Made by a program: the position numbers and the translations under genes
Shown: positions 14,771 to 56,262 of the stretch, one piece after another
Layout: the number at the start of each line of letters is the position of its first letter
How positions within the stretch are numbered: position 1 is the stretch's first letter
Assembly: GCA_026018925.1 (NCBI GenBank)
Contig: JAKSZU010000006.1
Location: 198,311,449-198,375,448, forward strand
Source of the DNA: Tupaia tana
Lineage: Eukaryota > Chordata > Mammalia > Scandentia > Tupaiidae
DNA length: 64,000 bases
Reading direction: 5' to 3'
Notes under the pieces: model-generated
Database searches by the model: none
What the model saw: only the letters and a program-made list of their open reading frames with translations
Told to the model about the DNA's origin: nothing

Positions 14771-14780
14771 AGGTTGTCCC

Positions 14781-14998
14781 GTCCCTGTTCGGGCGCCACG
14801 TGTCCCGACCCGGGGGGACAGTCGAACAGGTTTCCTGAGGGAAGGAGTGAGAGCCAGGACAAGCGGCGCAGTGTCACAGCACGGAGACGACACAGTGTCT
14901 TCAGTGTCGTCTGTTTATTGTGGGCAGCACGGTACAGCACGGAGACGACGCAGTGTTACAGCTCTCCAGCGACAGCCATTACGCTAACTGCTGGTCCC
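14781..14998 (-). mobile_element. Chimeric insert: SINE head fused to ERV R-U5-primer-binding site
   Basis: On the minus strand this reads: the first about 34 nt of the long-form SINE (14998-14965), then part of R and the complete U5 of the same ERV family as 53.9-56.3 kb (about 14964-14801; near-identical blocks such as gacagtcgaacaggtttcct), then an 18-nt primer-binding site at 14798-14781 matching the 3' end of lysine tRNA. Homology stops within a few bases of that site. No gag, U3 or poly(A) tail is present, and I found no clear TSD. Confidence 0.8.
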
Positions 14999-19693: not shown

Positions 19694-19787
<94 letters not shown>

Positions 19788-20106
19788 ATATGTTTTTATA
19801 TATATTTCTCCCAAAGGCCTCTCTATGTATGTGTATATATGATTTTATGCATAATATATGTAATACATATATGCATACATATATATTGGGTCATCAGAAA
19901 AGTCATGACACATTTTTACATAGAAAAACTTTTCTGATGTCCCAATAGTATATACACTATATATGGAACATATATACGTATATGTTCCACATATAGCGTA
20001 TATATTATGTATCATTTATATTTTTCCTTTTATATATTATATATATCCTGTAGTATAGTATATATATAGTAAGTAACATATATATTTATATATAATATAT
20101 ACATAT
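19694..20106. repeat. Compound (TA)n-(CA)n-(TG)n and AT-rich repeat field
   Basis: Pure TA run at about 19697-19737, CA and TG runs to 19785, then AT-rich imperfect repeats. A hairpin with a perfect 10-bp stem and TACG loop (ggaacatata / tatatgttcc) lies at 19965-19988. Confidence 0.85.
19886..19945. mobile_element. Short palindromic mariner-type MITE, copy 2 (shortened)
   Basis: Starts ttgggtcatcagaaaagtca and ends ttttctgatgtcccaa, flanked by TA on both sides. The second arm is shortened. Confidence 0.82.
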
Positions 20107-20313
20107 ATATTTCCAAAGAGGAAGAGTGCACCCACCCTCCCATGGGATGTGGTCACACTGTAATCTCTTCTCCATGTCTTCACCCTGTCAGGATATGGGG
20201 TATGCATGCACACGTGCCTGCTATGTTTCTCAAGTTGCTGGGACCGGGTTTCGAACTGTGGTTGGCTGTGTGGAATCTGGCTTCTTCATCACTGGGCTAC
20301 GAGATTGGCTCTG
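20107..20313 (-). mobile_element. Older subfamily of the tRNA-derived SINE
   Basis: Antisense body with 'accctgtcaggatatggggt', then B-box complement 'ggtttcgaactgtggttgg' and a head ending 'gattggctctgg'. The diagnostic 'ctgtcaggat' is shared with the copy at 44.8-45.46 kb. Confidence 0.7.
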
Positions 20314-20315
20314 GA

Positions 20316-21778
20316 AAAGTCTTACTGCCCAGTTCAATTTGTCTCTCCTGTCTCATCTCCCTGTCTGTTTTACATTGCATTTTCTGGGTCATGTACTACG
20401 GTGTGTCACAGATGACCTCAAAACTCTGTGGGCCTCAGTCGTCAAAGTGCCAACAACAAAGGGCACTTGCTGGCATAGCATAGGCTTGGCCTAGGGTCTG
20501 TGGACATTGAGGAACCACTGGCCAAAGGAAAGGTATGAGCTTGGTATGAGAAGGGGCCAGAAGGAGCTTAGCACTCCCAGGAAAGGGGAAGACTACGTAT
20601 TAAAAAAAAAAAAAAAAAAAAAAAAGGTATTTCTGGGGAATTTGAGAATAAATTGGAGTCCAGGGTGAGCCAGAACCACCCTTCCCCAGCTGCTGAGAGT
20701 GTCACAGAGCAGGAATTAAGTTCGAGTCAGAGAATATTGTTCCCAGACCAAAAGCCCACATTGAGGGGTGTAGTTAGCTAAGGGTAAGCAAGGGCAATAG
20801 AGTGGTGGCCAGATCCTGGTGGCCATGAGAGGTTTCTCAGCTCCTTATTGAGTCTCTGCTGGGGCAATGCCAGCCACAGAGTACAAACCATGCTTTGGTG
20901 CTGGCTGTAGACATATTGTTTTCTCATAACTACTATCATTCAAACAGGATCTAGTTTCTTGGCATGAGCAGGTTGTTCCCACTGCGTACGCACTCTGCTA
21001 TGGGACAAGGGAAGGCAAATCCTCCAAGGAACTGGATGGAGACCCCATCCCAAGAAGCAGTTTGGGCAAGGAGAGATGGAGAGGAGCTGATTCACCTTCT
21101 GTTCATGTGGTTTATGAATGAAATGAGTAGAGCCCATATTCCCCCAAAAGTTCACAAGGTTTAAGTGGGATTACCAGGTAGAATCCAGCTGAACTATCAT
21201 TTAACTTGTTGAGAGACCTAAATATTTAATCTGCCCCATTACAAATCCCAGAGTCCTATGTAAACAGCCATGGCTGAGGCTCTGAAAGTCAACATGCAGT
21301 TGGAGTAAGAAGTATTGCAACTGGTACAGCTTCTGCTGTGACGTCTTAAACTTTTGAGCTCACCAGACAAAGCAAGCCTGAAAACCTAGAACTGGAAGCG
21401 AGGAGGCTGGCTTCTCTGCTTGGTCTGCCACTAAGTTCTCTGAGCCACTGCCTTTCAAAAGCAAGTATTTTATTTTATTTACTTTCTAGCAGGATTGCTC
21501 TTCCTGTACTTCACCGTCCTTACTCTTAATCTAAGAACAGTAGGTTCTCATGCTGATGACTCAGGCGAGATCACGAACAAAACATTACTAAACAAATCTC
21601 GCTTTTCTCGAGTGTTCTCAGTGATCCATTTCCAGCTAAAGTCCTCCTCCTAGACAAGTCATTTTTATGAGTTGAACTGTGGCAGAACTGACAGGGATGC
21701 ATGAAATCAGCCGCATAAACTGAAAACCTAATGACAGTGTATATACACAACTTTTTATTTAAAAAATTTAAAAATCAA
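20316..21778. other. Unassigned; A-run at about 20599-20625
   Basis: The A27 run is not preceded by a recognisable SINE body. No gene seen. Confidence 0.4.
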
Positions 21779-22012
21779 GGGGTCAGATGATTGCACAGCT
21801 GTAACAAAACACTCTGTGAAATTGATCCACATATGAAGGTTCTGGGTTCACTTCTGGAGACCTCTCTGCACATGCTGGGCACATGTGAGCCCATGATCCA
21901 GGGCTTGCTGAAGCTGGGGATAAATCATGGTATGAAGAACCTGTTGGGGATGTGTGCCTGCCCCCTTCTCTTTCACTTATGAAAGAAAGAAATAAACTTA
22001 AAAAAAAAAAGT
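21779..22012 (+). mobile_element. Second SINE family (family B), most complete copy
   Basis: tRNA-like head 'ggggtcagatgattgcacag', B-box region 'ggttctgggttcacttctgg', body 'gggcttgctgaagctgggg', 'gaagaacctgttggggatg', then 'aataaactt' and an A run. Confidence 0.75.
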
Positions 22013-22019
22013 TAAAATA

Positions 22020-22262
22020 GAGACCAGCAGGTGGCACAATGGTTAAGGCACTGGAGTCCCACATGGTTAACCATGGTTCAAGTCCTAGACCTGCCAGCTT
22101 GAAAATCATGCATGTACATGCATGTCCAAAGTCCCAGGAGGAGAATGGAGAGGAAGGGATATAGCAAGACTTCCCCCAGCAGGTGAAGTCATGAAGTCTC
22201 ATTTTCTCTCTCACTGTCTTTCTCTGGTGAGCACATGCATCCTATGGCAAAAACCTTAAAAG
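22020..22262 (+). mobile_element. tRNA-derived SINE, long form
   Basis: Head 'gagaccagcaggtggcacaa', body 'aggaggagaatggagagg', 3' end 'cctatggcaaaaacctta'. It adjoins the 3' end of the half-L1. Confidence 0.9.
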
Positions 22263-22265
22263 AAG

Positions 22266-24870
<2,605 letters not shown>

Positions 24871-47414: not shown

Positions 47415-48307
47415 GCAGAGAGCTTAGTTCTCTTTCACACTATACAAGATGGCAGTTGAAAAAACTGCAAAGCAGGATACTAAGGAGAAGAAACTCGAAG
47501 CCAAGAAGGCTGATGCCAGTGGCAAGGTTAAAAAGGGTGACCCCAGGGCTAAACGCCCAAGAAGGAGAAGCCCCATTGTAGCAGAAATCCAGTACTAATC
47601 TACCGTGTATTCCAGGAAGGCCGTTTACGAGAGGAAATACTCGGCCACTAAATTCAGGATTGAAAAGAAAAGGGAGAAGGTTCTTGCCACTGTCACAAAA
47701 CCAGTTGTTGGGGACAAGAATAGTGGTACCTGGGTGGTTAAACTTCGCAAAATGCCTAGATATTATCCTACTGAAGATGTGCCTTGAAAGCTGTTGAGCC
47801 ATGGCAAAAAAAAAAAAAAAAAAAAAAAAAAAACCCTTCAGTCAGCATGTGAGAAAGCTGCGAGCCAGCATCACTCCTGGGACCATTCTGATCATGCTCA
47901 CTGGACACCACAGAGGCAAGAGAGTGGTTTTCCTGAAGCAGCCGAGCAGTGGCTTGCTACTTGTAACTGGACCGCTGGTTCTCAATCGAGTTCCACTGCG
48001 TAGAACACACCAGAAATTTGTCATTGCCACCTCCACAAAAATTGATATTAGTAAAGTAAAAATTCCAAAACACTTTACTGATACTTATTTCAAGAAAAAG
48101 AAGCTGTGGAAGCCCAGACACCAGGAAGGTGAGATCTTTGACACAGAAAAGGAGAAATACGAGATTATAGAGCAGCAAAAGGTTGGTTGGAAAGCTGTGG
48201 ACTCACAAATTTTACCAAAAATCAAAGCTGTTCCTCAGCTCCAGGGATACCAGCGATGCATATTTACCCTTACAAATGAGGTTTATCCTCACAAATTGGT
48301 GTTCTAG
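47415..48307 (+). pseudogene. RPL6: RPL6 processed pseudogene
   Basis: Retrocopy of ribosomal protein eL6 of the 60S subunit. ATG at 47448 ([15 protein letters not shown]); clear later blocks are [72 protein letters not shown] and the C terminus PHKLVF at 48307. The copy covers the whole coding region without introns. Broken by a frameshift near 47560, a stop near 47596 and a run of about 31 A at 47805-47833 where the parent has a short A tract. The open frame 47801-48307 is the 3' half only. A SINE follows directly after the stop. Confidence 0.96.
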
Positions 48308-53260: not shown

Positions 53261-53433
53261 TTAAAAATATTTATTTAATTTCATTTATTATTATTATTTT
53301 ATTTTCTATAGAGCACACACTCTCACCAGAGAGACAGGAAAAGTGAGAAATCAAGCCACCAGGTCTGGGACTTGAACTGTGGTCTGCCACGTGGGAGTCC
53401 AACCCCTTAACCACTACACTACCTGCTGGCCCC
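53261..53433 (-). mobile_element. tRNA-derived SINE, short form
   Basis: A/T tail, 'ctcaccagagagacagg', head complement 'cacgtgggagtccaacc', ends 'ctacctgctggcccc'. Target phrase ggactattttctt (53242) repeats as gggctattttctt (about 53437). Confidence 0.9.
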
Positions 53434-53452
53434 TTAGGGCTATTTTCTTTTC

Positions 53453-53719
53453 TTTCTTTTCTTTTTTTTTTTTTTTTTTTTGGAGAGGTTTTTGCTATAG
53501 GGCGCGTGCGCTCGTCAGACAGAGAGACAGAAAGCGAGAAATCACCCCCCCAGAGGGTATGGCCACGCTGCAGTCCCTTCTCCTCCATTCTCCTCTCGGG
53601 ATCTTGGGCATGCACACACACACGGCCAGCGTGAGTTTTAAGCCACCGGGTCCGGGACATGAACTGTGGTAGGCTACATGGGAGTCCAACGACATAGCCA
53701 TCACACTAACTGCTGGTCC
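53453..53719 (-). mobile_element. tRNA-derived SINE, long form, same target site as its neighbour
   Basis: T20 run, 'ggagaggtttttgctatagg', 'ccttctcctccattctcctc', ends 'aactgctggtccc'. TSD gggctattttctt (about 53437 and 53721). Confidence 0.92.
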
Positions 53720-53866
53720 CTGGGCTATTTTCTTATATTAGATCTTTGAATACTTTGGACTGGGTTTTCTACTTTAGGATACCTTTTAATGTATTATATT
53801 TTTCTTTTCTCTATGCCTTTCACTTTTCTCTGTAAATTCTGCCTTTTATCTCAGATTACCTTAACT

Positions 53867-53872
53867 TTTCTG
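53867..53872. repeat. ERV target-site duplication, left copy
   Basis: TTTCTG directly before the element; same 6 bp at 56257-56262. Six bp is typical of betaretrovirus integrase. Confidence 0.9.
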
Positions 53873-53928
53873 TGTGGGAGGCTGCGCAACAGCGAGTCTG
53901 CCGAGGTTTCTCAGAGAGCAAACAATTG
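53873..53928 (+). repeat. Inverted copy of the U3 end (left terminal repeat of the ERV)
   Basis: Starts TGTGGGAGGCTGCGC. Its 56 bases equal the reverse complement of 56201-56256 with no mismatch. Extending to 53933 adds a further 5 bases with one mismatch. Normally a U3 start in the opposite orientation and a full LTR would stand here. Confidence 0.95.
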
Positions 53929-53967
53929 TCATGCAGACTCTCTTACCCGTCTAACCGATTCAGCGCC

Positions 53968-54234
53968 TCAGGCGAGACCAGTATAGGGGTGTTGGTCTTC
54001 CATAAGTGAGTCAATTTGTTGTTTGAGGAATGACATGCGCCTATTAAATATAACAGGTCCCAGTGAGCAAACAATCAAAAGGCCAATGGATGGGCCAAGG
54101 AGGGGGAGCGGGAAAGGGAGGAGACCGTTCCAGGCAGACCATTCTACGTTGTTGGAGAGATTGTTGGAGTTGATGTATGTTGTCACGAACGATGCCGGAC
54201 TTGTTGGCGTAAAAGCAGCGTTCCTGTAAAGCAA
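53968..54234 (-). pseudogene. env: ERV env transmembrane subunit, membrane anchor and tail (shifted frame)
   Basis: The fusion frame leaves the env reading frame near 54140-54120. The anchor and tail continue in this overlapping frame. A hydrophobic span (about 54125-54060, [19 protein letters not shown]) is the likely membrane anchor, followed by a short cytoplasmic tail ending at the stop at 53968. In the parent virus this segment would anchor the fusion subunit in the membrane. Here a single frameshift separates it from the ectodomain. I see no convincing polypurine tract between this stop and the left terminal repeat. Confidence 0.75.
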
Positions 54235-55219
54235 GACAGAGACCTCCCTGTTCTGCCAGGAGGAGATTTAAACCTCGTCTATTTTGAAGAACCACCTCAG
54301 CCGGGGAATCTAGTTGGTCTGAGATAAGACCCTCAGTGACTTGGCGTAATAACCCAAGCCAGTGGAGCCAGCAGCTGTAGCTGCGGTTAGGGAAACACAA
54401 AGGCTGAGAGTTTTGAAATTTAAGAAGGATAGCTCGGGCTAACGTTTGCCAATCAGATGGTATGAGCCAGCCCTTGGTGATAGCTTCAACTATAGCTAAG
54501 GTATATGGAGCAGTAGCTCCGTATTGGGTGACTGCCGCCTTAATCTCTTTTACCATAAACCTACTGTGACGGCGCCAAACCTGTCCTTGGGGATCTATAG
54601 TTTCCATAACAGGGAATGTCTCAAAGTCTGTCATATGTGATCCCTGAACTAGTTTTGTTTCTTTGTCTGTATTGGTTTTTAGTTTCTCTAATTGTGATAT
54701 TAATTCCTGGTGTTCCTTTTCTAATTGAATTTGTTCTTTTAATTGTTTTATTTCATTAATTATTTTTTGTTTTGGGTCAATAAGAGGTGGTGCTGAAGCA
54801 GTAGTGTTATAGGGTGGCGGCCGTTTTTTGAAAGACAACCATTCGGGGTTATTATATTTATCAGCCTCGGCCTCTAGGATTTCCTCCTCTGAACTAGTTG
54901 ATGACTTGTTTTTCTTTGGCTCTTGTAGCGCCTTAAGGTTGTTTTTATTTTTTAGTTTTTTTGATTTTTGGGGCTTTGTCTCGCCTTTAGGGCTTTTGAC
55001 TTCTCCTTCACTATCTAGGGAAATAAGATCCTCTCCCTGTTCCTTTTCAATTTTAGAATTAACGACCATAGTGGCAAGGGCTTCTTTTAAGTCCTGAATG
55101 AATAGTTTGTGCTGACTAAGCTCTTGTTCGTGCTGGCTAAACTCTTGTTCGTGCTGGCTAAGCTCTTGTTCGTGCTGGCTAAGCTCTTGTCCCATTATTA
55201 CCCTTATTACTTGTCCCAT
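54044..55219 (-). CDS. ERV Gag-Env(TM) fusion frame, 391 codons, open
   Basis: Residues 1-47: two MGQ starts (residues 1 and 9; the second is probably the original, myristoylation-type start) and a fourfold SQHEQEL-like repeat. Residues 48-130: acidic and lysine-rich, with most of the matrix domain missing. Residues 134-137: PPPY, a late-budding motif typical of type-D Gag. Residues 148-183: probable coiled coil. Residues 197-268: N-terminal capsid sequence. At about residue 268 (nt about 54415) it passes in frame into the Env transmembrane ectodomain (269-360) with the conserved leucine-rich helix and a disulfide motif that reads C-X6-C-F, so the last cysteine expected there is absent. After about residue 360 the frame departs from env. 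Nothing indicates that it is translated. Confidence 0.82.
55110..55195 (-). repeat. 21-bp tandem repeat at the gag start
   Basis: Four copies of a unit like gctggctaagctcttgttcgt, an exact multiple of 3, giving the repeated SQHEQEL peptide. A separate duplication (cccattattacccttatta) at 55192-55236 duplicates the start codon context. Confidence 0.9.
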
Positions 55220-55261
55220 TATTACCCTTATTACTTATAAGTAAGCAATCTTTGTTACTCA

Positions 55262-55497
55262 CTGGGACGATTCTCTGCCGTTCCCTCTCGGACGATTCTC
55301 TGCCGTCCTATCTCGGGACGATTCTCTGCCGTCCCCTCCTCGGACGATTCTCTGCCGTCCTATCTCGGGACGATTCTCTGCCGTCCTATCTCGGGACGAT
55401 TCTCTGCCGTCCCCTCCTCGGACGATTCTCTGCCGTCCTATCTCGGGACGATTCTCTGCCGTCCTATCTCGGGATGATTCTCTGCCGTCCCCTCCTT
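55262..55497 (-). repeat. ERV leader minisatellite, 9 units of about 26 bp
   Basis: Core gacgattctctgccgtc. Unit ends follow a pattern (tatctc, tatctc, ccctcct) that repeats with a 78-bp period, so units were amplified in blocks of three. It lies between primer-binding site and gag, where packaging signals normally are. Confidence 0.92.
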
Positions 55498-55528
55498 GGG
55501 TGCTCTTCACTGGATCCTTCGTACTCAG

Positions 55529-55585
55529 GTCCCTTGTTCGAGCGCCACTTGTCCCGACCTGGTTCGGGCGCCACGTGTCCCGACC
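55529..55585 (-). promoter_or_regulatory. Duplicated ERV primer-binding site (lysine tRNA type)
   Basis: Two 26-bp tandem units (55534-55559, 55560-55585) each hold the U5 end (tgtcccgacc) and the site. The LTR-adjacent copy keeps gttcgggcgcca, the first 12 nt of the site. The distal copy (55529-55547) extends to the full length with one inserted base and one substitution. The intact 18-nt version is at 14781-14798. Confidence 0.88.
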
Positions 55586-56018
55586 CAGTGGGACAGTCGA
55601 ACAGGTTTCCTGAGGGAAGGAGTGAGAGCCGGAACAAGCGGCACAGTGTCACAGCTCGGAGACGACACAGTGTCGTCTGTTTATTGTGGGCAGCATGGTA
55701 CAGCACGGAGACGACGCAGTGTTACAACTCTTTAGGGTCGCGTCGTCTGTTGTGAGCAGCACGGAGACAACGCGGTGTCACAGCTCTTCAGGCTCGTCTG
55801 GAGACGATGTAGTGTTACAGCTCTTCAGGGTTGTCTGGAGACTGTGCGGTGTTTCAGCTCTGCAGGCTCTCCAGGGTCGTCTGGAGACTGTGTGGTGTTT
55901 CAGCTCTGCAGGCTCTCCAGGGTCGTCGTCTTCCTGGTCTTCTGTGTTGTCTTCCTGGTCGTCTGTGTTGTCTTCGCTGTCTTCCTGGTCGTCTGGCTAT
56001 TGTGGGCCAGGCATGGTG

Positions 56019-56141
56019 CTTATATACACATTGGTGGATCGCAAAGGTGGGTTATGATTGGTTGCAAATGGTGGGCCGTGATTGGTTGTAAATGGTGGGC
56101 CGTGATTGGTTGTAAACGGTGGGTTACGATTGGTTGCTTTT
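56019..56141 (-). promoter_or_regulatory. ERV U3 promoter: TATA box and four CCAAT repeats
   Basis: TATA (tgtatataagc on minus) at 56019-56028. Just upstream is a 24-bp unit repeated four times (56046-56141), each with a CCAAT box (ATTGG on plus: gattggttg). Further CCAAT sites lie at about 56146 and 56190. Confidence 0.82.
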
Positions 56142-56200
56142 GGACCAATCATGAGGTGCCAGATATGCAAATCTGAGGGATTTCTAGTGGCCAATCATGG

Positions 56201-56256
56201 CAATTGTTTGCTCTCTGAGAAACCTCGGCAGACTCGCTGTTGCGCAGCCTCCCACA
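56201..56256 (-). repeat. U3 end, right terminal repeat of the ERV
   Basis: Natural start of the 5' LTR on the minus strand. Perfect inverted match to 53873-53928. Confidence 0.95.
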
Positions 56257-56262
56257 TTTCTG
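56257..56262. repeat. ERV target-site duplication, right copy
   Basis: TTTCTG, identical to 53867-53872. Confidence 0.9.

Follow-up and report, generated by a model that had tools for sequence, protein, structure and literature searches.

A complete provirus carries two direct LTRs. In the window analysed here (the whole stretch of DNA, 64 kb in length), a minus-strand retroviral remnant of 2384 bp lies between two copies of the hexamer TTTCTG and has a U3 terminus at each of its ends, in opposite orientations. This locus raises two questions: how a second U3 end came to stand in the place where a 3' LTR is expected, and whether the change happened before or after the element was inserted into the host genome.

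Inverted arms and target-site duplication

The left end of the element is an inverted U3 tip (positions 53873–53933, plus strand), which occupies the place of the expected 3' LTR. Its partner is the U3 start of the only LTR (56196–56256, minus strand). The two arms are 61 nt long, are separated by 2262 nt and are complementary at 60 of the 61 positions. Positions 1–56 pair without a mismatch; position 57 of the tip holds the sole difference, and the bases CATG beyond it pair again. Within the window the arm pair is found by BLAST with an E-value of about 1e-25.

Both arms start with TGTGGG and both adjoin an exact copy of TTTCTG (53867–53872 on the left, 56257–56262 on the right). Among flank lengths from 3 to 9, the two flanks match at length 6 only, and identity of the flanking hexamers by chance has a frequency of 0.0005 in randomly drawn pairs. 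The earlier note on this DNA had claimed that a 56-bp U3 terminus is inverted at both ends and that an exact 6-bp duplication frames the element. Both claims hold, and the terminus can be read either as 56 perfect positions or as 61 positions with one mismatch.

The left terminus reads TGTGGGAGGC, which is of the U3 type, whereas a normal 3' LTR would be expected to have TGTCCCGACC there, i.e., the U5 end in reverse complement. The reverse-complemented U5 end starts with TGTCCC and the left tip with TGTGGG. Because the left terminus matches U3 and differs from U5, a U3-type attachment sequence is present on both ends of the element.

The minus-strand self-comparison of the window consists of 556 rows, which we filtered for pairs of at least 50 bp and at least 95% identity lying less than 6 kb apart. 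Three rows pass the filter: the U3 arm pair and two overlapping rows that represent one other pair (19695–22937), whose left arm lies within a stretch with a translation resembling a simple repeat. Elsewhere in the 64-kb window, no further copy of the left end was found. When the joined host flanks were used as a query against the window in search of an empty-site copy, only the self-matches of the flanks touched the join among the 40 matches listed.

Structure of the element

Read along the minus strand, the element starts with its only LTR (55576–56256). The LTR was delimited by its ends and signals and is 681 bp long by our own reading (TG...CA). A TATA box lies at viral position 231 and an AATAAA signal at 572, and the tandem repeats of the LTR contain CCAAT boxes. 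A repeat search revealed a 26-bp tandem duplication of the U5 end and the primer-binding site (55532–55585, minus strand); the two primer-binding-site-like stretches in it are presumably of the tRNA-Lys type. In the leader (55264–55496) the same search detected 26-bp tandem repeats in 8.8 copies, which can alternatively be described with a 78-bp period.

Next comes the 5' portion of gag (54410–55234, minus strand, assigned by Gag alignment), which extends into the N-terminal region of the capsid, and the same open frame continues into env. The 3' part of env, which encodes the transmembrane subunit, is located at 53934–54409 (minus strand, assigned by Pfam TLV_coat); it is frameshifted and its upstream limit is approximate. 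The open frame from 55234 to 54044 thus encodes a gag-env fusion of 396 residues. The gag/env boundary falls inside 54326–54424, near 54410 by our own reading. The element contains nothing that corresponds to the remainder of gag, to pro, to pol or to the surface part of env; in particular, no pol was found in its reading frames.

Env stops at 53968–53970, or at 53943–53945 in another frame. The inverted U3 tip begins 9 to 39 bases beyond that stop, depending on the frame and the arm length chosen. The self-comparison of the window revealed no 3' LTR at the left end, so the element lacks the pair of direct LTRs of a complete provirus. The claim that a U3 tip joined to the end of env replaces the 3' LTR is therefore right as to the replacement, but the interior is a gag-env fusion and not env alone.

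There is no purine run longer than 7 within 600 bases of the tip, and the polypurine tract therefore appears to be lost. A purine run of seven bases, AAGAGAG, ends 4 bases before the tip. Polypurine tracts are normally longer than this, yet the run may be a remnant of one.

Two further repeats are located near the start of gag. A 24-bp tandem duplication (55186–55236) repeats an MGQ-containing stretch, and the adjoining 21-bp array (55105–55190, 4.1 copies) repeats a SQHEQEL-like stretch.

Retroviral affinity

The gag part of the fusion shows 41–43% identity to three Gag proteins, two of which are named as simian retroviruses; residues 69–270 of the open frame are 42.8% identical to the Gag of simian retrovirus SRV-2 (P0002). 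In the env part, residues 304–390 (87 residues) share 57% identity with a simian retrovirus Env and residues 304–364 (61 residues) share 79% with another Env (P0012). Two env pieces match the Pfam family TLV_coat (E-values of 2.8e-27, above the cut-off, and 5.1e-05); among the matches listed, an Env of this type also occurs in many other retroviruses. Two pieces match Gag_p24, both under the curated cut-off, and the second of them ends near 54419. A Gag_p10 domain was not found in the element by the Pfam search. The 120 matches listed for gag and env come from many vertebrates, mostly mammals where these are named.

A primer-binding site of the tRNA-Lys type and a 6-bp target duplication are traits of type-D viruses and betaretroviruses. 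With its gag, its gamma-type transmembrane Env and the 6-bp duplication, the element is best read as a defective type-D-like, betaretrovirus-like provirus. Its identification as a provirus in the earlier note is borne out. The element shares with type-D-like betaretroviruses a gag related to that of simian retroviruses, the transmembrane Env and the two traits just mentioned. Unlike them, it is devoid of pro, pol, most of env and the 3' LTR, and its second end is an inverted U3 tip.

Residues 33–127 of the SRV-2 Gag have no counterpart in the gag frame of the element. A bat protein (P0007) aligns unbroken across residues 37–270 of the open frame, with 234 residues against 252. Since P0007 aligns as a single stretch, the shortened matrix region may be a family trait; the missing counterpart may alternatively represent a matrix deletion.

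Two candidate fusion relatives were considered and rejected. A colugo protein (P0052) has both gag and env domains, but its gag domain is Gag_p10 and differs from the part fused here. P0046 is the sole protein among the 120 listed that matches both halves of the open frame, and the E-value of 0.93 for its gag half amounts to no match. At the DNA level, pattern scans of viral contigs gave 3, 0 and 89 pattern matches, and no relative was confirmed among them.

A second, related LTR fragment is located at 14774–14965 of the window. It spans the R/U5 side and the primer-binding site and runs a few bases into the leader, and 172 of 192 aligned columns are identical. The fragment is truncated on both sides and has no target duplication that is obvious by eye. 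It also seems to reach into the second unit of the tandem duplication at the U5 end and primer-binding site, so this duplication may be a family trait.

Rearrangement before or after integration

The host flanks of the two arms differ, and the reverse complement of the right flank is absent beside the left arm. A later conversion from the right LTR would be expected to carry this reverse complement along, so its absence disfavours conversion. Given the intact duplication and the exact termini, the simplest account is that two U3 ends were present before insertion. We infer from these features, rather than from an observed event, that the rearrangement probably preceded integration, and we regard this order as well supported. 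The earlier note had proposed the same order, and the intact TTTCTG, the distinct flanks and the exact left terminus all speak for it.

LTR elements are well known to rearrange once they have been inserted, and the structure described here is seen at a single locus. A normal 3' LTR could in principle have been replaced with the inverted U3 tip after integration, by conversion or deletion. However, such a change would have had to stop on the exact terminal base, leave the adjoining TTTCTG intact and carry over nothing of the right flank, and we consider it quite improbable. The distinct host flanks of the arms, the single base difference between them and the matching hexamer make an artefact of assembly or library preparation the least probable of the explanations that we considered.

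Origin of the second U3 end

Plus-strand DNA starts at the polypurine tract, with the first base of U3. We favour, with moderate confidence, a strand switch near this plus-strand start during reverse transcription. The switch would have yielded a linear molecule with a U3 terminus on either side, and integrase would have inserted this molecule in the normal way with a 6-bp duplication; the exact switch is reconstructed from this one locus.

Because synthesis starts at the polypurine tract, the 5' end of the plus strand would be the exact U3 terminus (cleavage between the polypurine tract and U3 is restated in the accessible part of PMC3187697). The growing plus strand would pause just past env and pair with the 3' end of a short U3 piece left by a premature stop. 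The paired strands would then copy each other, which would give a U3 end on each side, and integrase would insert the resulting U3/U3 linear DNA normally. The internal gag-env deletion would be a separate copying error, which could have come earlier or later. According to the accessible part of PMC3187697, template switching is about as frequent in RNA-dependent as in DNA-dependent synthesis, and short plus-strand pieces detach and reanneal in a recombination model presented there.

A strand copied back along the plus-strand start must end at the U3 terminus, and this would explain the exact left terminus. If the switch occurred at the plus-strand start, both switch points, i.e., the end of env and U3 bases 57–61, are expected near it. 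In a normal genome both should indeed lie close to that start; we infer their spacing and any microhomology between them. The perfect part of the arm ends in the palindrome CAATTG, which could let the paused plus strand and the U3 piece prime each other. This is only suggestive, as one six-base stretch in 64 is palindromic by chance. The junction does not fold better than shuffled sequences do (z of -0.55). We predict that this copy was a dead end: it has one LTR only, and its RNA would be without a 3' R region, so that it could not repeat the retroviral cycle.

GAGTCTG, a 7-base direct repeat shared by the end of env and U3, could in principle have guided the switch. We rejected it as a probable chance match: random pairs of stretches with the same lengths share an 8-mer in 15% of draws.

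Two other routes to a second U3 end before integration have to be weighed against the strand switch. Autointegration, in which the U3 end attacks its own viral DNA and the product integrates later, would yield inverted segments. Circular MLV DNA with an inverted segment has reportedly been described, judging by a title cited in PMC12789967; like the element, it is retroviral DNA in which a viral segment is inverted, but it is a circle, whereas the element is an integrated provirus with two U3 ends. The usual products of autointegration are closed circles, which offer no second free U3 end, and a bare U3 tip beside env is not predicted. We consider this route highly improbable. The mechanisms suggested in the earlier note thus fare differently: a strand switch appears to fit best, and autointegration is less supported.

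Alternatively, two viral DNA molecules could each have supplied one U3 end to a single integration, after which host repair joined the broken interiors and left 56–61 bases of the second molecule. This would account for both exact termini and for the duplication. It also agrees with the concerted integration in vitro that the accessible part of PMC8742673 describes for HIV-1 integrase and donors with an attachment end, that of U5, on one side only; by our own reading, the enzyme therefore paired identical ends in that assay. The assay may likewise serve as a precedent for the integration step of the strand-switch account. Attachment sites are imperfect inverted repeats, and for RSV the requirements for the U5 end may be stricter, as stated in the accessible part of PMC12789967. 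With two molecules, however, the breakpoints would be free to fall anywhere, and they are observed 56–61 bases from the U3 end and 9 to 39 bases past env. We therefore regard the joining of two molecules as unlikely, and the strand switch remains our preferred reading.

Published relatives

Among the titles and abstract openings listed, with subscription literature mostly outside the coverage, no published provirus with two U3 ends was found. The closest published relative that we found, and a precedent for the proposed copying error, is a set of HIV proviruses with asymmetric LTRs (PMC9278108). In its accessible part, that study describes proviruses with deleted 3' LTRs, which its authors ascribe to misalignment during reverse transcription, and its set also includes two proviruses with inversions, one of which has a deletion as well. 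Like the element, the asymmetric-LTR HIV-1 proviruses are integrated and have an intact 5' LTR and a damaged 3' LTR, and faulty template use is held responsible. The 5' LTR of the element was judged intact by its ends and signals only. The difference is that the 3' LTR is deleted in the HIV-1 proviruses (as far as the accessible part of PMC9278108 goes), whereas an inverted U3 tip is substituted for it in the element.

Implications

The element appears to be the fossil trace of one accident of reverse transcription, the product of which integrase still accepted. As such it is a naturally occurring example which suggests that U3/U3 DNA can undergo concerted integration and give a proper duplication of the target. 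Should further copies be found, the switch position in them would show where synthesis of the plus strand goes wrong. Pipelines that require two direct LTRs would overlook such insertions.

The earlier note had suggested that, if other copies share the structure, it would define a non-autonomous retroviral family with transposon-like terminal inverted repeats. The anatomy of the element, with its one LTR and without a 3' R region, speaks against multiplication of this copy by the retroviral route. A much broader reading is that U3/U3 DNA is a natural and recurring integrase substrate and that the virus family spawned transposon-like inverted-U3 elements, each arising anew through this strand switch where the plus strand begins. 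We consider this very doubtful.

Neighbouring features

Judging by its L1 and SINE repeats, the host is probably a placental mammal. An L1 ORF1 piece matches 2122 proteins; the few that are named among the best 120 belong to horse and monkeys, and the top match shows 78% identity across 79% of the query. SINE-like copies are located next to the element, at 53300–53740. They have many relatives in the window and are tRNA-like by eye. Farther away, an open frame at 47798–48307 has the look of a processed pseudogene, with a lysine run at its start; we take it to be an RPL6-like ribosomal protein pseudogene.
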